A stretch of 52,187 nucleotides of DNA from contig NZ_JAMXOD010000019.1 of NCBI RefSeq assembly GCF_024721305.1, forward strand, positions 1-52,187, given 5' to 3'. The translations under genes were made by a program, and so were the position numbers. Shown here in pieces: positions 19,600-28,531 of this stretch (the stretch's first letter is position 1; each line of letters opens with the position of its first letter). Source of the stretch: Aequitasia blattaphilus (lineage in GTDB: Bacteria; Bacillota; Clostridia; Lachnospirales; Lachnospiraceae). The notes beneath the pieces were generated by a model that worked only from the letters and a program-made list of their open reading frames with translations, searched no databases and was not told the DNA's origin.

Positions 19600-20844
19600 C
19601 TATTTTTCGTTTTTTGGTGCCATGTCTTCTTCATAGATGCGATAGCTGTTCTTTCCGCCATGTTTTGCGTGATACATAGCAATATCGGCATATTTAATAA
19701 GTACGTGGTAATCTTGGGTGTGCATGGGATAAAGAGCAATCCCAATGGAGAGTCCAAGACCGTAGTTTTCACGATATTTTAAAAAGCGTTCAGAAGAAAA
19801 GTGGCTTAGGGTATCTTGAGCAAACTTTTCTGCATCCTCTACAGTAGAAACATCGTCGACAATCTGGACAAATTCATCGCCTCCAACTCTGGCTGCGATA
19901 TTAAGCTGTCCGGCTGAAGGCCGGAATGAATGCACTGTTGATTTGTTTTGATTTAAGAAGTCACCTACTTCCTTGAGGACTTCATCTCCCATGTCGTGAC
20001 CGGCCGTGTCATTGATGTTCTTAAAGTTATCAAGATCAATGAAAACAAGGGCATAAGGTTTTTCCTTGGAAGTCATGGCCTGATCCTCCAGCAAATCCAG
20101 GAGATACTTCCGGTTTGGGAGTCCTGTTACCGTGTCATAGTGAGCCATAGTGTAGAGTTGATTTTGCATCTTCCAAACTTGGGAGAGGAGGAAGAAAATG
20201 AGTATAATCATAAAGGTAAGAATACTCGCCAGTACAATCAACAGAATCAGTTGATTGGTTTTCCCCCTGTCCAGACTTTCCTGATAGTAATGATCCCGGA
20301 TATCGGTGCTGATAACGGCAATTACTTTTCCGTCCTTCATAATGGGAATGGCAGCAGTGTTATAGCTCCCATATTCATCCACTACGTTCATGACACCACT
20401 GGCATTTTCGCCAGCAAATGCCTCCAGATGTACGGGATCTGGATCGTAAGGAATGAAAACAGATTCATCCTCTTCATCAGTATCCAGGACAAACATTACC
20501 TCGTCCCCTACATATTTCAATATGTAGATATAGTCTGCCTGGGTGGTTCTTGCCAAATCTCTTAAGTTGGCTCTCATGGAAATGTAGGTTGCTTCGTCTG
20601 CTTCCATATCTTCTTTGCTTTTGTAAGAATCAATAACATCAGAATCTACCATATTCCTGGCGGCGATTGTGATGGAAAGCAGCTGGCTTTCAATACTGTT
20701 TTTCAAAAGCTCCCGCTGGGCGTTCGTACTTCTGATGTTCATGCTTGTTACAACAGCTAAAAGTGCAAGAGCGAATACGAGGATTGTTGTGATGACAATC
20801 TTTCTTGCCTTTTTTGTTTTTCTTCGTTCTGTTATGATGTTCAT
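19600..20844 (-). CDS. membrane diguanylate cyclase (GGDEF)
   Basis: A 414-residue protein expected to make cyclic di-GMP. N-terminal membrane segment (KIVITTILVFALALLAVV), an extracytoplasmic Cache-like region of about 150 residues, a second membrane segment (LILLIVLASILTFMIILIFF), then a GGDEF domain with intact GGDEF at 321-325 and DxLTGLPNR-like start DTVTGLPNRKYL. No RxxD inhibitory site is visible at the usual place upstream. The start used follows AAAGGGGA; an in-frame upstream Met lacks a ribosome binding site. No c-di-GMP effector is adjacent. Confidence 0.92.
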   Translation of the reverse strand: MNIITERRKTKKARKIVITTILVFALALLAVVTSMNIRSTNAQRELLKNSIESQLLSITIAARNMVDSDVIDSYKSKEDMEADEATYISMRANLRDLARTTQADYIYILKYVGDEVMFVLDTDEEDESVFIPYDPDPVHLEAFAGENASGVMNVVDEYGSYNTAAIPIMKDGKVIAVISTDIRDHYYQESLDRGKTNQLILLIVLASILTFMIILIFFLLSQVWKMQNQLYTMAHYDTVTGLPNRKYLLDLLEDQAMTSKEKPYALVFIDLDNFKNINDTAGHDMGDEVLKEVGDFLNQNKSTVHSFRPSAGQLNIAARVGGDEFVQIVDDVSTVEDAEKFAQDTLSHFSSERFLKYRENYGLGLSIGIALYPMHTQDYHVLIKYADIAMYHAKHGGKNSYRIYEEDMAPKNEK

Positions 20845-20915
20845 ACGTCCCCTTTCTCTATTAGTATAGTACGATTTTACCATTAGGGTACGGTTTCGGT
20901 CAAGGAGTGGATTGT

Positions 20916-20944
20916 TTGACAGAAGGAAGCGGGTAGGATATAAT
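20916..20944 (+). promoter_or_regulatory. perfect consensus promoter of the cell-wall operon
   Basis: TTGACA at 20916-20921 and TATAAT at 20939-20944 are separated by exactly 17 bases. It lies 66 bases before the ATP-grasp gene. No operator-like repeat was seen, suggesting strong constitutive transcription. Confidence 0.88.
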
Positions 20945-21010
20945 GAAACATTGTATAAAGTGAGAAAACAAGGGAGATATGAGCCCTTTTATTATTAGGA
21001 GGAAGACCGT

Positions 21011-22222
21011 ATGGAATGTGTTGAAAGAGAGTTTATTCCTGTTGTGTTGGGGGGAGATATTAATACATACAGTGTAGCAAGAGCGTTTTACGAAGAATAT
21101 CAGGTAAAAACCTATATTTTCGGGAAATATTCATCAGGACCTAGTTATAATAGTAAGATTATTGAGTACACAGCGAACCCTAAAATTGAAACTCAGGAAG
21201 GTTTTTTAGAAACAATCCTTTCTTTTGGGAAAAAGCATGAGGACAAGACAATCATTCTGTTAGGAGCTGGAGATGCTTATATTGCACTGATTAGCCAGAA
21301 TAAGGAGAGATTGCCGAAAAATGTAGTGGCTCCTTATATTGATTATGAGCTTATGAATCGTCTGCAGAGAAAGGATGTATTTTATGAGCTTTGTGATAAG
21401 CATGGGGTAGACTATCCAGACACCTTTGTGCATACTCCTGATATGGGGTATGATTTTGAATTGAATTTTTCTTTTCCGGTTATTCTAAAGTCTTCCGAGA
21501 GTATTACTTATTGGGAGCATCCTTTTGAGGGACAAAAGAAGGTCTTTCTGATGAATTCCAGAGAAGAGCTGGAAGAGACAATGAAGAAAATCTATGGTGC
21601 AGGCTATGAGAATGCTTTGATTATACAGGATACTGTTCCTGGAAATGATGAATATATGTACGTACTGACTTCTTATTCCGACAAAAATGCAGAAGTAAAG
21701 ATGATGTGTCTAGGCCATGTTTTGCTGGAAGAACATACGCCATTAGGACTCGGAAACCATGCGGCAATTATTACGGAGGCAAACGAAGAGCTTGCAAGAA
21801 AAGCGAAGGCCTTATTAGAGGATTTGCAGTATGTTGGCTTTTCAAACTTTGATATTAAATATGATACAAGAGATGGGAAATATAAGTTTTTTGAGATTAA
21901 CACCAGACAGGGAAGAAGCAATTACTATGTAACCGGTTCAGGGTTTAATATTGCAAAATATTTAGTAGAAGATTACGTATATGGTACGACAAGAAAATTT
22001 GAAATGGCCAAAGAAAACCACCTTTGGATGGTTGTTCCGAAAGGTGTTGCATTTAAGTATGTAAAAGACGAAAAGACAAAAGAACTTATGCATAAGTTGA
22101 TTCGGGAAGACAAGTATGTGAATCCTTTGTTCTTTAAGGGAGATTTACGACCGGGAAGACTGTATCATCTTTTGCGCTCACACTTTAGTCACTATATTAA
22201 GTATCAGAAGTATTACAAATAA
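21011..22222 (+). CDS. ATP-grasp ligase, probable D-aspartate ligase (Aslfm-like)
   Basis: A 403-residue ATP-grasp protein of the COG3919 type. The central ATP-grasp fold is visible (FPVILKSSESITYW with the ATP lysine; Mg-binding FEINTRQGRSNYY near residue 300). It would activate a carboxylate with ATP and join it to an amine. In Enterococcus faecium the homologous-type Aslfm adds D-aspartate to the lysine side chain of the peptidoglycan precursor and lies beside an aspartate racemase, as here. AGGAGG upstream fixes the start. First gene of a four-gene operon with 9-13 base gaps. D-Asp as substrate is inferred from the neighbours. Confidence 0.8.
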   Translation: MECVEREFIPVVLGGDINTYSVARAFYEEYQVKTYIFGKYSSGPSYNSKIIEYTANPKIETQEGFLETILSFGKKHEDKTIILLGAGDAYIALISQNKERLPKNVVAPYIDYELMNRLQRKDVFYELCDKHGVDYPDTFVHTPDMGYDFELNFSFPVILKSSESITYWEHPFEGQKKVFLMNSREELEETMKKIYGAGYENALIIQDTVPGNDEYMYVLTSYSDKNAEVKMMCLGHVLLEEHTPLGLGNHAAIITEANEELARKAKALLEDLQYVGFSNFDIKYDTRDGKYKFFEINTRQGRSNYYVTGSGFNIAKYLVEDYVYGTTRKFEMAKENHLWMVVPKGVAFKYVKDEKTKELMHKLIREDKYVNPLFFKGDLRPGRLYHLLRSHFSHYIKYQKYYK

Positions 22223-22234
22223 AGGGGAGACCAT

Positions 22235-22939
22235 ATGAAGAAAAAGCTGGGTGTAATTGGAGGAATGGGACCAGAGGCCACAAGTTATTTTTATGAAGAG
22301 GTGATTGCCCATACGAAGGCTCATACGGATCAGGAACATATCAATATGGTAATCCTGAGTCATGCAACGATGCCGGATCGTACAAAAGCAATTTTAACAG
22401 GTAAATCAGAGGTCCTTATTGAAAAGCTTGTAAAGGATGCTAAGATATTGGAAAAATTGGGTGTGGCAAATATTGGGATTCCATGTAATACATCCCACTA
22501 CTTCTTTGATCAAGTACAGCAGGAGGTTGCAATTCCAATTATCCACATGCCAAGAGAAAGCGTGAAAAGTGCAATCCGTTCTTTTGACAATGTGAGAAAG
22601 ATTGGAATCATGGGAACAGACGGAACTATTGAAGCGGGAGTTTACCACAAAGAGTGTGAAAGCCTGGGAGTGCTGCCAGTTTCCCCTTCGAAAGAGCGGC
22701 AAAAAGATGTTATGTCTCTGATTTATGACGACATTAAAAGTGGAAAAAAAGGAGACAAAAAGAAGTTTAACCGGGCGTTTGAGGAACTTGTAACAAAGGG
22801 CTGCGACGTTGTGATTTTGGCCTGTACGGAACTTTCTGTTTTTAAGAGGAATTTCGATGTGTCGGAACGGTGTATTGATGCCATGGATACTTTGATTTAT
22901 GAATCCATTGTCAGAAGTGGCGCCAAGTACGTGGAATAG
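22235..22939 (+). CDS. racD: aspartate/glutamate racemase family, probable aspartate racemase
   Basis: A 234-residue cofactor-independent racemase. The two catalytic cysteines are C84 in GIPCNTSHYF and C197 in LACTELS; the N-terminus has GVIGGMGPEAT, typical of aspartate racemases rather than MurI. It supplies D-aspartate. Its position 12 bases after the ATP-grasp gene mirrors the ligase-racemase pair known for D-Asp interpeptide bridges. AAGGGGAGA ribosome binding site. The family is certain; the symbol follows usual naming. Confidence 0.88.
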   Translation: MKKKLGVIGGMGPEATSYFYEEVIAHTKAHTDQEHINMVILSHATMPDRTKAILTGKSEVLIEKLVKDAKILEKLGVANIGIPCNTSHYFFDQVQQEVAIPIIHMPRESVKSAIRSFDNVRKIGIMGTDGTIEAGVYHKECESLGVLPVSPSKERQKDVMSLIYDDIKSGKKGDKKKFNRAFEELVTKGCDVVILACTELSVFKRNFDVSERCIDAMDTLIYESIVRSGAKYVE

Positions 22940-22948
22940 GGAGAGAAA

Positions 22949-24457
22949 ATGGAGAATTTAAAAACCTATACTTTAAAGTACTATTTGAAATTATTAGCGG
23001 CTTCCAACCTTGTGGAAGAGGCAAACCTTTATCAGAAGGAGAGCATAAAGGTATTAGACATTACCTATAATTCCAAGGAAATCAAAAAGGATGCCTTATT
23101 CATTTGCAAGGGCTTGGCCTTTAAGCAGGAATACTTGGAAGAGAGTGTAAGACAAGGAGCTTTTTCTTATGTAAGTGAAAAGAAATATGCTTTGAAAGAA
23201 GAAGTACCTTATATTATTGTAAAAGACATCCGAAAAGCAATGGCAATATTGGCAGGACAGTTTTTTGATTATCCTCAGAATAAATTGAACTTAATCGGGA
23301 TTGGTGGTACAAAAGGAAAGACAACGACAGCTTTTTATATGAAATCGATTCTTGATGAGTATATGACAGCTCAGGACAAACCTCTTTGTGGGATTATGTC
23401 TTCGATTCATACCTTTGATGGAAAGGAAACGAAGGTGGCTCATAATACAACTCCAGAGGCAGTGGAACTTTATCGCCATTTGTATGAAGCGGTAAAGAAT
23501 GGGGTGTCCTATATGGTGATGGAAGTGTCGTCTCAGGCATTGAAATATAATAGGGTGGATGGTCTGGTCTTTGATGTGGGTGTGTTTTTGAATATTTCAA
23601 AAGATCACATCAGTCCAATTGAGCACAAAGATTTTAAGGATTACTTCCATTCAAAGCTTAAGATGTTTGCCCAGACAAAAACGGCAGTTGTGAATTTGGA
23701 TATTGAGCATGTTGATGAAGTCCTCGAAGCAGCGAAAGCTTCCGAGTTTACGATTACTTATAGTCTGGAAAATGAAAAGGCGGATTACCTTGCATCTAAT
23801 GTGAGGAAAGAAGGAATGGGAAGTGCTTTTGGTGCAGTTGGACCGGGAGTGAATGAGGAGTTTCAGCTTTCTATGCCAGGTCTTTTTAATGTGGAAAATG
23901 CCATGGCGGCTATTGCAGTTGCAAAGACTTTCTTTATTCCATTAGAATATATTAAAAGTGGCTTGAAAAAAGGGAAGGCCAAGGGCCGGATGGAAATTTT
24001 CAAGGATAAGAAGAGGGATGTAGTGGCGATTGTAGACTATGCCCATAATAAGTTGAGTTTTGAGAGGCTTTTTTCTTCCATGAAAGAAGAATTTCCAGGA
24101 TATCGAATTGTTGCGGTGTTTGGAACGCCAGGGGGCAAGGCTTTTGACCGAAGAGAAGAGCTGGGCAGAATTGCAGGGAAGTATGCAGATTATATTATCC
24201 TGACGGCAGACGAGCCAGGGTTTGAAAGTGTAGAAGATATTGCAAATGAAATTGCGAAATATATAGAAGAGTATGATACGCCTTATGAGATTGTGGTAGA
24301 GAGACGGGACGCAGTGAAAAAGGCAATCCTTGAGTCGAGAGAGAAGACCTTGGTGATTGTAGCAGGAAAAGGTCACGAGGACTCCATGAAGGTGGGAAAT
24401 AAATATCTGGAGTATCCATCCGATATTGAACTGGTAACGACGTATTTAAATCGATAA
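22949..24457 (+). CDS. MurE-like UDP-MurNAc-tripeptide synthetase
   Basis: A 502-residue Mur ligase. The N-terminal domain is MurE-type; the central P-loop is GGTKGKTTTAFY near 117; then SSQALKYNRVDG with the conserved region before the carbamylated lysine; the C-terminal domain has VDYAHN and VIVAGKGHED. At the site where MurE enzymes read their third amino acid (DNPR for meso-DAP, DNPA for lysine) the sequence is DEPG (about 420-423). The amino acid added cannot be assigned from this. It could be the housekeeping MurE or a second Mur ligase dedicated to this operon. GGGAGA ribosome binding site, 9 bases after the racemase. Confidence 0.85.
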   Translation: MENLKTYTLKYYLKLLAASNLVEEANLYQKESIKVLDITYNSKEIKKDALFICKGLAFKQEYLEESVRQGAFSYVSEKKYALKEEVPYIIVKDIRKAMAILAGQFFDYPQNKLNLIGIGGTKGKTTTAFYMKSILDEYMTAQDKPLCGIMSSIHTFDGKETKVAHNTTPEAVELYRHLYEAVKNGVSYMVMEVSSQALKYNRVDGLVFDVGVFLNISKDHISPIEHKDFKDYFHSKLKMFAQTKTAVVNLDIEHVDEVLEAAKASEFTITYSLENEKADYLASNVRKEGMGSAFGAVGPGVNEEFQLSMPGLFNVENAMAAIAVAKTFFIPLEYIKSGLKKGKAKGRMEIFKDKKRDVVAIVDYAHNKLSFERLFSSMKEEFPGYRIVAVFGTPGGKAFDRREELGRIAGKYADYIILTADEPGFESVEDIANEIAKYIEEYDTPYEIVVERRDAVKKAILESREKTLVIVAGKGHEDSMKVGNKYLEYPSDIELVTTYLNR

Positions 24458-24470
24458 GAAGGAGAAAACT

Positions 24471-26303
24471 ATGTGTGGATTTGTAGGATATTACGGTACA
24501 GGAGACTATAATCGTGAAAAAGTACTGGATGAGATGGGAGAATTAATTGTCCACCGAGGTCCTGATAGTAAGGGGAGCTATGTAGATGATAAAGCAGCCC
24601 TGGGATTTCGAAGACTAAGTATTATTGATTTGGAAGGCGGAACGCAGCCAATTCATAGTGCAGATGGAAAGCACCTGATTATTTTCAACGGAGAGGTTTA
24701 TAACTATAAAGAGATTCGAAAAGAGCTGACGGAAAAGCATGGTGCTGTATTCCAGACGAATTCTGACACAGAAGCTATACTGCAGGCTTATAAGGTTTAT
24801 GGAGAAAAAACGGCTTCTATGCTGCGAGGTATGTTTTCTTTTGTGATTTATGATAAAGAGAAACAGACAATGTATGGTGCCAGGGATTACTTCGGTATTA
24901 AGCCGTTCTATTATACAAATATGAATGATACCTTTATCTTTGGTTCGGAAATCAAATCCTTTTTAGCTCATCCTTCCTTTCAAAAGGAGGTGAATAAGGA
25001 CGCCTTAAAGCTCTATTTAATTTTTCAGTATACGCCTACAAAGGAGACTATGTTTAAGGATGTATACAAGTTGGAGCCGGGAACATATTTCACCTATGAT
25101 GGAAAAGAATTTAAGGAAACCAGATATTTTGATTTCAAATATCAAGTGAAAAAGAGAGGTTTTGACGAAGTCGTAAAAGAGATTGGAAAAACAGTACAGG
25201 AATCTGTGGATTACCATCAGATTAGTGATGTGGAAGTGGGCTCTTTCCTTTCAGGAGGAGTGGATTCCAGCTATATTGCCTCTTCGGTAAAGCCTATGAA
25301 AACTTATTCCGTTGGCTTTAAGGTAGAAGGCTTTGATGAAACGGTTTACTCTCAGGAGCTGTGTAAAATCCTGAATATGAAGAATGCCAAAAAGGAAATT
25401 ACTCCAGACGAGTTCTTCGATATATTGCCCCGGGTACAATATCAGTCGGATGAGCCACATGCAAATCTGTCAGCAGTTCCTTTATATTTCTTATCTCAGT
25501 TAGCTGCTAAGGACGTAAAGGTAGTCTTGAGTGGAGAAGGTGCTGACGAGATGTTTGGTGGATATGACAGTTATATTGACAGTGGTGTGGAAGGAGCTTA
25601 CCGAAAGCTTCCTTTGGCTCTTAGAAGAAAGCTTGGAAAGTGGGCTTCTAAGAAGAAGTACTTTAAAGGGCGTGAGCTGATGATGCGTAATACAAAGACT
25701 TTGGAAGATTCTTACGTTGGACAGTCTTATATTATGGATAATCATGAGGCGGATGCAATTCTTTCGAAGGAGTATCAGAGTAAGGTACGCTATCAGGATG
25801 TGACAAAGCCTTATTTCGATCAGGTAAAGGATTTAGATGATCTTCATAAGAAGATGTTCCTGGATATGAATGTATGGCTTCCTCATGACATTTTACTGAA
25901 GGCAGATAAAATGACTATGGCTCATTCGATTGAGCTTCGGGTACCTTATTTGGACAGAAAAGTATGGAATCTGGCAAGAACCTTAGAATCGAAGCAGTGT
26001 GTGGATGGAAAAAATACGAAAATCGCTTTCCGTACGGCTGCTTTGGCAAAAATACCTATGGAGTGGGCAAAGAGAAAGAAACTAGGCTTTATGGTACCGG
26101 TTCGTGTGTGGATGCGCAAGGAAAAGTACTACAATCAAATTAAGACTGTTTTCGAAAAAGATTTTGTCTCAGAATTTTTTAAGAAAGATATTTTGCTAAA
26201 GTGGTTAGAAGACCATAAAAACAAAAAAGGAAACTACCAAAGAAAGATTTATACGGTATACTCGTTCTTGTTATGGTATGAGCAATATTTTGTGTTAAGG
26301 TAA
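24471..26303 (+). CDS. asnB: glutamine-hydrolysing asparagine synthase (AsnB/AsnH type)
   Basis: A 610-residue two-domain amidotransferase. The N-terminal Ntn glutaminase starts at Cys2 (MCGFVGYYG) with VHRGPDS and FNGEVYNY; the C-terminal synthetase has the PP-loop [10 protein letters not shown] near 258-267. It uses glutamine to amidate an aspartyl carboxylate. In Lactococcus and Enterococcus an AsnH-type enzyme amidates D-Asp in the wall bridge; being last in this operon fits that role, but free asparagine synthesis remains possible. GAAGGAG precedes the start. Confidence 0.88.
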   Translation: MCGFVGYYGTGDYNREKVLDEMGELIVHRGPDSKGSYVDDKAALGFRRLSIIDLEGGTQPIHSADGKHLIIFNGEVYNYKEIRKELTEKHGAVFQTNSDTEAILQAYKVYGEKTASMLRGMFSFVIYDKEKQTMYGARDYFGIKPFYYTNMNDTFIFGSEIKSFLAHPSFQKEVNKDALKLYLIFQYTPTKETMFKDVYKLEPGTYFTYDGKEFKETRYFDFKYQVKKRGFDEVVKEIGKTVQESVDYHQISDVEVGSFLSGGVDSSYIASSVKPMKTYSVGFKVEGFDETVYSQELCKILNMKNAKKEITPDEFFDILPRVQYQSDEPHANLSAVPLYFLSQLAAKDVKVVLSGEGADEMFGGYDSYIDSGVEGAYRKLPLALRRKLGKWASKKKYFKGRELMMRNTKTLEDSYVGQSYIMDNHEADAILSKEYQSKVRYQDVTKPYFDQVKDLDDLHKKMFLDMNVWLPHDILLKADKMTMAHSIELRVPYLDRKVWNLARTLESKQCVDGKNTKIAFRTAALAKIPMEWAKRKKLGFMVPVRVWMRKEKYYNQIKTVFEKDFVSEFFKKDILLKWLEDHKNKKGNYQRKIYTVYSFLLWYEQYFVLR

Positions 26304-26497
26304 CAAAAAAACAGCATATATTGATAAAAAAACTACGAAAATCATACAAAATATACAACGAATCACCGATAATCTTGTATTCTTTTCCGATATACGAAAG
26401 TATACTGAATATGATAATATAGCTAGCATAGGTGACATGAATAGGTAAGGTTACTTATAGAAACAGAAGATAGGATAATTAGGATAAGGTGATTCAA

Positions 26498-26731
26498 ATG
26501 AGTAAGACGATGATTATGTTTCAGGATGCTCGTGATATCGAGGATTTTGCAAACAAGATGTCAAAGTATCCCTACGATATGGACTTAAAAAGAGGTCGGT
26601 TTATCGTAGATGCGAAATCGATTCTGAGTATCATGAATATGGGTGTTCACAACAAAATCGAGTTCAAGGTACACGAAGACGAAGAAGATTTAAGCAATCT
26701 CTGGGGAGACATCAAACCCTATATGGCATAA
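26498..26731 (+). CDS. HPr-like protein lacking the catalytic histidine
   Basis: A 77-residue protein with HPr fold features: KSILSIMNMG at 40-49 matches the regulatory serine region of HPr (Ser41 here). The N-terminal segment that should carry the phosphorylatable His15 reads DARDIEDFANKM, with no histidine, so it cannot act as a normal PTS phosphocarrier. Such proteins may be regulatory or structural paralogues. ATG with AAGGTG upstream is preferred to a GTG three codons earlier. It stands alone between the cell-wall operon and guaA. Confidence 0.75.
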   Translation: MSKTMIMFQDARDIEDFANKMSKYPYDMDLKRGRFIVDAKSILSIMNMGVHNKIEFKVHEDEEDLSNLWGDIKPYMA

Positions 26732-26983: not shown

Positions 26984-28531
26984 GTGAAGAAAGAGCGAAT
27001 CATTGTCATCGATTTTGGAGGGCAATACAATCAATTAATAGCAAGAAGAGTCAGAGAAGCAAATGTGTACTGTGAAATTTATTCCTATAAGACAGATTTT
27101 GAAAAGATTAAAGCGCTGAACCCAAAGGGAATTATTTTAACGGGTGGACCAAATAGTGTGTATGAAGTAGGCGGGCCTACTTACACGAAGGAGCTGTTTG
27201 AGTTAGGAATACCAGTTCTTGGTATTTGTTATGGTGCTCAGCTTATGTCTTACCTTCTTGGAGGAAAAGTCGAGACAGCAAAGGCGGCGGAATACGGCAA
27301 AACAGATATTATAATTGATTGCCCAAGCTCCAAGATATTCAAAAATGTACCAACTAATACAGTGGGATGGATGAGTCATTTTGATTATATTTCAGCACCG
27401 GCAGATGGGTTTACTATAACTGCGCATACAGATAATTGTCCTGTGGCGGCAGCAGAAGATGAGGAGAAAAAACTATACGCAGTCCAATGGCATCCAGAAG
27501 TACTCCATTCGATTCATGGGAAAGAAGTGCTTCAAAATTTTGTTTACGATATCTGCGGATGTGTAGGTGATTGGAAGATGGATTCTTTTGTTACAGAGTC
27601 TATTGCTCAGATAAAAGAAAAAGTAGGAGACGGAAAAGTGCTTTGTGCTCTTTCTGGTGGGGTGGATTCCTCAGTGGCAGCAGTTATGCTCTCTAAAGCA
27701 ATTGGTAACCAGCTTACTTGTGTTTTTGTGGATCATGGTCTTCTTCGTAAAAATGAAGGAGATGAGGTTGAAGAGGTATTTGGACCTGAAGGTCACTATG
27801 ACTTAAACTTTATCCGTGTTAATGCACAAGAGCGCTTCTACGGAAAACTGGCGGGAGTAACAGAGCCGGAGCAAAAGAGAAAAATTATTGGTGAGGAATT
27901 TATTCGTGTATTTGAAGAAGAAGCCAAGAAAATCGGAACCGTTGACTTTCTGGTACAAGGAACCATCTATCCAGATGTGGTAGAAAGTGGTTTGGGTGGA
28001 GAATCTGAAGTGATTAAATCCCATCACAATGTAGGTGGGTTACCGGACTATGTAGATTTTAAAGAAATTATTGAGCCTCTTCGCGACCTTTTTAAAGACG
28101 AAGTAAGGAAGGCAGGATTAGAGCTTGGTATTCCAGAGAATTTGGTGTATCGCCAGCCATTCCCAGGGCCTGGTCTTGGAATCCGTATCATCGGAGAGGT
28201 GAATGCAGACCGTGTGAAAATCGTACAGGATGCAGATGCAATTTACCGGGAGGAAGTAGCAAAAGCTGGTGTGGCAGATGAACTGGGTCAATATTTTGCG
28301 GCTCTTACCAATATGCAAAGTGTTGGGGTAATGGGAGACGAGAGAACTTATGACTATGCAGTTGCACTGCGGGCTGTAAATACGGTGGACTTTATGACGG
28401 CTGAGGCCAGTGAAATACCATGGGATGTGCTTCATAAGGTAACGAGTAGGATTATTAATGAGGTGGATCATGTAAATCGGGTGCTGTATGATTTGACGAG
28501 TAAGCCACCTGGGACTATTGAGTTTGAGTAG
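26984..28531 (+). CDS. guaA: GMP synthase (glutamine-hydrolysing)
   Basis: A 515-residue two-part enzyme converting XMP to GMP. N-terminal class I glutaminase: GICYGAQLM with the nucleophile Cys, and VQWHPEV with the His/Glu pair. ATP-pyrophosphatase: ALSGGVDSS. The C-terminal dimerisation domain ends PPGTIEFE, the family consensus. It starts with GTG after AGGAGG (26971-26976). The final codons (28520-28531) form the 12-base repeat that recurs at the island boundaries, so the gene stays intact after insertion. Confidence 0.97.
28520..28531 (+). repeat. guaA 3'-end attachment repeat, copy 1
   Basis: GAGTTTGAGTAG, the last codons and stop of guaA. An identical copy is at 29507-29518 and an 11/12 copy at 32847-32858. 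The guaA 3' end is a known target of tyrosine-integrase islands. Confidence 0.75.

Follow-up and report, generated by a model that had tools for sequence, protein, structure and literature searches.

A predicted D-aspartate/D-asparagine cross-bridge operon carries the only MurE detected in Aequitasia blattaphilus

Introduction

Does an operon for D-aspartate (D-Asp) or D-asparagine (D-Asn) branches decorate a diaminopimelate (DAP) cell wall, or does it build a wall of another kind? The question is raised by a 52,187-nucleotide stretch of Aequitasia blattaphilus DNA (Lachnospiraceae; contig NZ_JAMXOD010000019.1 of assembly GCF_024721305.1), here called the window, which holds an operon for an ATP-grasp ligase, an amino acid racemase, a MurE-family ligase, and an AsnB-family amidotransferase. 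An initial annotation had taken it for a D-Asp/D-Asn branch module in which a Mur ligase was added to a DAP-type cell. We conclude that the operon very probably builds an A4-type stem peptide with D-Asp/D-Asn cross-bridges and does not decorate a DAP wall. The direct basis for this reading is the gene order, homology, the single MurE, the loss of the DAP motif, the absence of detectable dapF and ddh, and the conservation of the gene set. The operon and its predicted promoter consist of the following features.

20916..20944, + strand: sigma-70 type promoter, TTGACA-17-TATAAT, 12/12 consensus; predicted function
21011..22222, + strand: ATP-grasp ligase, predicted D-aspartate ligase (AslA/Asl-fm-like), 403 amino acids (aa); open reading frame (ORF) and homology
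22235..22939, + strand: pyridoxal phosphate-independent amino acid racemase, predicted aspartate racemase, 234 aa; TIGR00035
22949..24457, + strand: MurE-family ligase of non-DAP type, motif DEPG, 502 aa; TIGR01085
24471..26303, + strand: amidotransferase of the AsnB family, glutamine-dependent, with a predicted AsnH-like role on the D-Asp branch, 610 aa; family model TIGR01536

We infer the substrates, the step order, and the wall chemistry of the following pathway from sequence. The racemase would convert L-Asp to D-Asp, and MurE would add a diamino acid that lacks a second carboxylate (most probably L-lysine [L-Lys], possibly L-ornithine [L-Orn]) to UDP-N-acetylmuramoyl-L-Ala-D-Glu (UDP-MurNAc-L-Ala-D-Glu), after which the stem would be completed by the usual MurF. 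The ATP-grasp ligase would activate D-Asp and couple it to the amine on the side chain of residue 3, and the AsnB-like enzyme would amidate the D-Asp branch to D-Asn.

Results

The operon MurE is the only one detected and lacks the DAP-type arginine

The operon MurE passed the family model TIGR01085, matched along its length, with a score of 341.7 (cut-off, 257.3), and it was the one MurE above that cut-off in the window's own genome (G000), which is 97.5% complete. A genome at that level could lack a murE, but we rejected the idea that an assembly gap hides a second one, since 12 further ligase genomes also had a single, operon-type MurE match at E ≤ 1e-60 (G077, G005, G062, G071, G078, G091, G116, G128, G129 [E. 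ruminantium], G130 [E. brachy], G136, and G139), and G062 is assembled in 5 contigs. Neither another MurE nor dapF nor ddh was found in G077, a genus-mate, as in the window genome. In G005 the operon precedes a primosome-helicase-like ORF and so occupies the place that canonical murE has in G032 and G012 (context judged by eye), and in G091 the ligase is a 30 to 32% relative that does not adjoin MurE.

Where DAP enzymes read DNPR, the operon MurE reads DEPG, and the fourth-place Arg is absent. This Arg binds the second carboxylate of meso-DAP (mDAP), and the L-Lys MurE of Staphylococcus aureus has Ala in its place (PMC3829189). The operon MurE scored below all DAP-ligase models shown (NF001130, 410 of 715; NF001126, 372.6 of 373), and the corresponding MurE of one Lactobacillales operon (L168) passed the NCBI L-lysine ligase model (553; cut-off, 536). 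On a MurE tree of 103 rows, a starred group of 78 comprised operon-type, Coriobacteriales, and Lactobacillales enzymes; the other 25 rows, mostly DNPR, stood apart from the operon-type group, and the two operon-labelled rows on the DNPR side are DNPR copies adjoining the operon. As a separate observation, Collinsella sp. An7 (G131, L161) has two MurE genes side by side on opposite strands, EEDPA and EDDPG, both non-Arg, and gave no dapF or ddh match.

Genes of the DAP branch are mostly undetected where the operon MurE stands alone

No match to dapF (TIGR00652) or ddh (TIGR01921) was found in the window genome, where a non-homologous epimerase is possible and dapL was not searched; dapF was found in 105 of 120 genomes of the family. 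Because a single MurE was detected, that enzyme lacks the DAP-binding Arg, and dapF and ddh were not found, we predict that the cell is not DAP-type and that this MurE does its basic stem building. In E. brachy, which has the operon MurE alone, dapF, ddh, lysA, and dapB all went unmatched.

We compared motif and pathway genes in 30 genomes chosen for the ligase and in a census of 118 family genomes, 13 of which are shared between the two sets. All 15 ligase-chosen genomes with an Arg-position MurE had dapF or ddh, and 13 of the 15 without one had neither by tally; in G122 and in G123 the dapF match contains a stop codon. The census gave 11 genomes with no Arg-position MurE, dapF being absent in 11/11, and 107 with one, dapF being present in 103/107. 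For census genomes that have the ligase and no Arg-position MurE, dapF was absent in 8/8.

Other departures from the DAP pattern were also seen. G073 (L187 5065-6684) and G089 (L188 1995-3557) encode a MurE with SGHNR in place of DNPR and have neither a dapF nor a D-Asp ligase match; perhaps they use another unusual stem residue. Four genomes (G030, G058, G007, and G043; L185, L186, L189, and L190, respectively) have a non-Arg MurE with DDPG or a related motif, gave no match for dapF or for the D-Asp ligase, and may therefore have a non-DAP wall with a different bridge; a DNSR-type MurE is also present in G007.

The ATP-grasp ligase resembles lactobacillar proteins encoded beside asnB or a racemase gene

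Family models gave the ligase weak carbamoyl-phosphate-synthase-like ATP-grasp matches only (CPSase_L_D2, 20.4 bits; cut-off, 19.8), and no sequence relative was found among solved structures at E ≤ 0.001, one chance-level match lying at 0.88. It is homologous over its full length to a Lactobacillus crispatus protein (38% identity, 413 columns) and, over 99% of its length, to proteins of L. curvatus (36%) and L. fermentum (34%). The L. crispatus gene lies 21 bases downstream of asnB, and that of L. curvatus follows an amino acid racemase gene. This homology upholds the annotated D-Asp/D-Asn branch module, a reading that is well supported at the level of sequence.

Matches to the ligase were found in 76 of 148 genomes of the order of G135, which we take to be the Lactobacillales, at E ≤ 0.001 (64 of these at E ≤ 1e-50), and in 77 of 120 genomes of the Coriobacteriales, the order of Thermophilibacter according to NCBI. 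One locus of the G135 order, L146, is 74.5% identical over 2771 bases to the L. crispatus asnB-ligase stretch, which supports that assignment. In the window's class the ligase had matches in 35 of 391 genomes at E ≤ 1e-40, and in its family sample in 13 of 120 at E ≤ 1e-50.

The racemase and the amidotransferase belong to the expected families

The racemase passed TIGR00035 (213 bits; cut-off, 93), and its alignment to the P. horikoshii-type aspartate racemase 1jfl retains both Cys motifs, CNTSH and CTELS. The amidotransferase passed TIGR01536 (489.7 bits; cut-off, 267.1), begins MCGFVGYYG, with the Met-Cys start of glutaminase-type enzymes, and is 41% identical to the L. crispatus AsnB whose gene adjoins the ligase gene. 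From the operon context, its predicted substrate is D-Asp.

Ligase, racemase, and MurE genes recur together

The best 80 of 520 confirmed ligase loci, which carry titles, were read for neighbouring genes. A racemase lay near the ligase in 69, a MurE in 55, and both in 49, and this neighbourhood is not a product of chance. Racemase, MurE, and an AsnB gene occurred together within 6.5 kb in 2 of the 80 (L052 and L095), with the AsnB gene on the opposite strand in L052; since only these two hold all four genes, we regard the amidotransferase as an add-on. Eighteen of the 25 loci without a nearby MurE belong to the Coriobacteriia by title (hand count), and in the two such genomes that were searched (G131 and G132) murE lies elsewhere in the genome.

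The racemase gene adjoins the ligase gene in 18 of the best 20 loci of the Lactobacillales, where amidotransferase and ligase are also repeatedly neighbours, and 3 of 11 loci with wide flanks (L168, L170, and L173) hold all four genes together. Among the clostridial loci read, a complete operon on one strand was found only in the window's genus (the window and Ohessyouella blattaphilus, L095/L010). The set of four is in itself already known from the three Lactobacillales loci. Literature searches on a second MurE, on murE with aspartate racemase and ATP-grasp genes in Clostridia, on L-Lys/D-Asp in Lachnospiraceae, on wall data of relatives, and on the two-wall precedent of Bacillus sphaericus found no description of the operon; as far as those searches alone can tell, it is undescribed so far.

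Some relatives encode two kinds of MurE

Ten of the 118 family genomes pair an Arg-position MurE with a non-Arg one, and four of these ten (G012, G025, G032, and G067) carry the ligase, all with dapF. By titled loci, the two kinds lie within a few kilobases of each other in Drancourtella, Claveliimonas, Mordavella, and Sellimonas; Claveliimonas bilis, Sellimonas caecigallum, and Drancourtella massiliensis have the operon MurE (EDPG) near a DNPR MurE and keep dapF. Genomes with one and with two MurE alternate on the MurE tree (13 versus 18 rows) with at least 8 changes, a count that refers to this gene tree and not to one of species. The alternation suggests that the DAP branch was lost, or the operon gained, more than once. 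A second non-Arg MurE was also seen in five dapF-positive genomes with no D-Asp ligase match (G105, G095, G113, G061, and G118; L295 to L299).

Operon structure and surroundings

The gaps between the four ORFs are 12, 9, and 13 bases, each start codon is preceded by a GGAG- or GGGAG-like stretch, and the first lies 66 bases from the promoter. Both the tight four-gene operon, with its families, and the perfect TTGACA-17-TATAAT promoter of the initial annotation were confirmed. A scan of both strands of the window for TTGACA and TATAAT spaced by 16 to 18 bases returned the promoter at 20916 to 20944 as its single match; weaker promoter-like matches between 19500 and 27000 numbered 25, near chance frequency (mean of shuffles, 20.3; standard deviation, 4.0). 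No terminator-like site was listed from the operon end to position 27000. Upstream, on the minus strand, lies a divergent gene for a membrane protein with a GGDEF motif (19600-20883), diguanylate-cyclase-like by eye. Downstream, between the operon and guaA, a plus-strand gene (26489-26731) encodes an 80-residue HPr-like protein (Pfam PTS-HPr, 27.9 bits), a 67% relative of which is also encoded downstream of the operon in L010.

Discussion

Since the operon MurE seems to be the cell's only such enzyme, the gene set seems to define the whole wall and not to decorate one. Such a wall would resemble that of lactobacilli, in a gut-type bacterium most of whose relatives seem to make another kind. 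The annotated addition of a Mur ligase to a DAP-type wall finds no support in this genome, given the sole MurE found, DEPG in place of DNPR, and the missing dapF and ddh matches.

Several observations weigh against an A4-type wall built by the operon. The operon MurE falls below the NCBI L-Lys ligase model (385; cut-off, 536) and misses the DAP model NF001126 by just 0.4 bit. Introducing the Arg into S. aureus MurE gave no mDAP activity (PMC3829189), so the DNPR motif marks specificity without fully determining it. The association of MurE motif with dapF in the census (Fisher p, 1.4e-12) ignores shared ancestry. G007, G073, G089, and G114 have an Arg-position MurE without dapF, and of the genomes with the operon MurE alone, G139 keeps dapF and G136 keeps ddh. 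G040 has a 39% relative of the ligase directly followed by an AsnB-family gene (L015 4548-7666), with the racemase and the operon MurE not beside it, and combines these with dapF and a MurE of the DNPR type only; the ligase family is therefore not tied to DAP-less cells. The ligase itself was judged by its lactobacillar homologues and not by the sequences of Lactococcus lactis AslA or Enterococcus faecium Asl-fm. The racemase also passed the cysteate racemase model CuyB (NF052483; 199.9; cut-off, 190), on which operon racemases elsewhere score 212 (Claveliimonas), 185 (L. curvatus), and 153 (L168); because it passes both aspartate-type and cysteate models, CuyB does not decide its substrate. 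Finally, the window genome retains dapB (two matches) and a lysA relative below cut-off (L183 8717-10030). In a control, L. lactis, lysA and dapB were found and dapF and ddh were not, so the profile of the window genome fits that of a known Lys-D-Asp organism. The sub-cut-off lysA relative was also seen in family genomes that retain dapF.

An ordinary DAP wall, with a D-Asp/D-Asn side branch or an additional stem type contributed by the operon, would suit a family in which most genomes look DAP-type by genes; the four ligase-bearing genomes with both MurE kinds and dapF would suit it too, as would G040 with its DNPR MurE only. Yet neither the window genome nor its genus-mate yielded another MurE, dapF, or ddh, and we consider such a wall very improbable. 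The retained dapB and the missing epimerase could also be explained if MurE added LL-DAP that accumulates and is used without dapF. We give this little credence: LL-DAP too has a second carboxylate, which in mDAP enzymes is bound by the very Arg that is missing here, direct cross-linking would presumably need no D-Asp ligase, and E. brachy, with the same kind of MurE, had no dapB match. Most improbable, in our judgement, is a product outside the wall (a small peptide, for instance, or a polymer resembling cyanophycin) made from ATP-grasp and Mur-ligase parts. Cyanophycin synthetase does pair the same folds, and its model matches the operon MurE weakly (91 of 850 bits), as an N-acetylglutaminylglutamine amidotransferase model matches the fourth gene (310 of 570). 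Both matches are far below cut-off, and we rejected this candidate; the operon MurE is above the murE cut-off along its length, it is the sole enzyme found for an essential step, and MurE of its kind is the only one found in the 12 further ligase genomes.

Within the A4-type reading, the third residue could be L-Orn (A4beta) in place of L-Lys. The ligase occurs in L. fermentum, whose stem contains L-Orn (PMC4155827), and the motifs examined do not separate Lys from Orn. Still, L-Lys is the commoner third residue of D-Asp-bridged lactic acid bacteria (PMC4155827) and the third residue of Atopobium parvulum (PMC3035223), and the specificity of S. aureus MurE for Orn is 400-fold lower (PMC3829189); we think L-Orn unlikely, though a serious contender.

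The A4-type wall that we favour has close counterparts. In L. lactis, AslA adds D-Asp to the stem L-Lys, RacD, encoded in the same operon, makes D-Asp, and AsnH amidates (PMC4155827). The ligase and racemase genes of the window thus share one operon, as aslA and racD do, and its AsnB-type enzyme is predicted to act on D-Asp after attachment, as AsnH does (PMC4155827). In contrast to L. lactis and to E. faecium Asl-fm, the window has MurE and the amidotransferase in the same operon, and its host is a clostridial, Lachnospiraceae-like bacterium. The three Lactobacillales loci carry the same four families, adjacent and on one strand, at 36 to 46% identity and with a DDPG MurE that also lacks the Arg; their order is amidotransferase-MurE-ligase-racemase, whereas the amidotransferase is last in the window. 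The bridge of S. aureus is not known to contain D-Asp. Its L-Lys MurE has likewise replaced the DNPR Arg by a small residue, giving DNPA there and DEPG in the window (PMC3829189). AsnB-family enzymes of Listeria, Bacillus, and Lactobacillus plantarum also act on peptidoglycan, amidating mDAP (PMC8554201), which cannot be the target in the window if the wall has none; the operon context predicts D-Asp instead. The wall of A. parvulum is A4alpha L-Lys-D-Asp (PMC3035223), and this species (Lancefieldella at NCBI) shares an NCBI family with the ligase carrier Thermophilibacter, a link at family level. A4 types are listed for Eubacterium and Atopobium in a gut review (PMC11382707); the wall type of Collinsella was not given in the portion examined of an Actinobacteria taxonomy paper (PMC6113628). 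In mice, the level of free D-Asp in the colon is increased by gut bacteria (PMC6297366), which we do not use as evidence. The operon is thus a wall module of an already known type, whose host appears to use it in place of the DAP branch and not alongside it.

Whether one species can have two wall chemistries is a question posed by the relatives with two MurE kinds. Lysinibacillus sphaericus, whose wall is L-Lys-D-Asp and whose spore cortex is of DAP type, offers a lead. We tentatively suggest, as a scenario with somewhat less than even prospects, that these relatives build two peptidoglycans per cell, perhaps for growth and for the spore or another stage, and that window-like lineages repeatedly dropped the DAP branch, which would leave clostridia with walls that, contrary to what is expected of the group, lack DAP and escape DAP sensors.

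For many Lachnospiraceae genera no wall type is on record; the table of a 2024 review is blank on it for Roseburia, Coprococcus, and Lachnoclostridium (PMC11382707). MurE motif, dapF/ddh, and D-Asp ligase largely agree in the genomes compared here, which should make wall type predictable from them and open to testing. NOD1 senses DAP. If our reading is true, a DAP-less wall would alter recognition by NOD1, the choice of wall-cutting enzymes, and taxonomy based on wall type.

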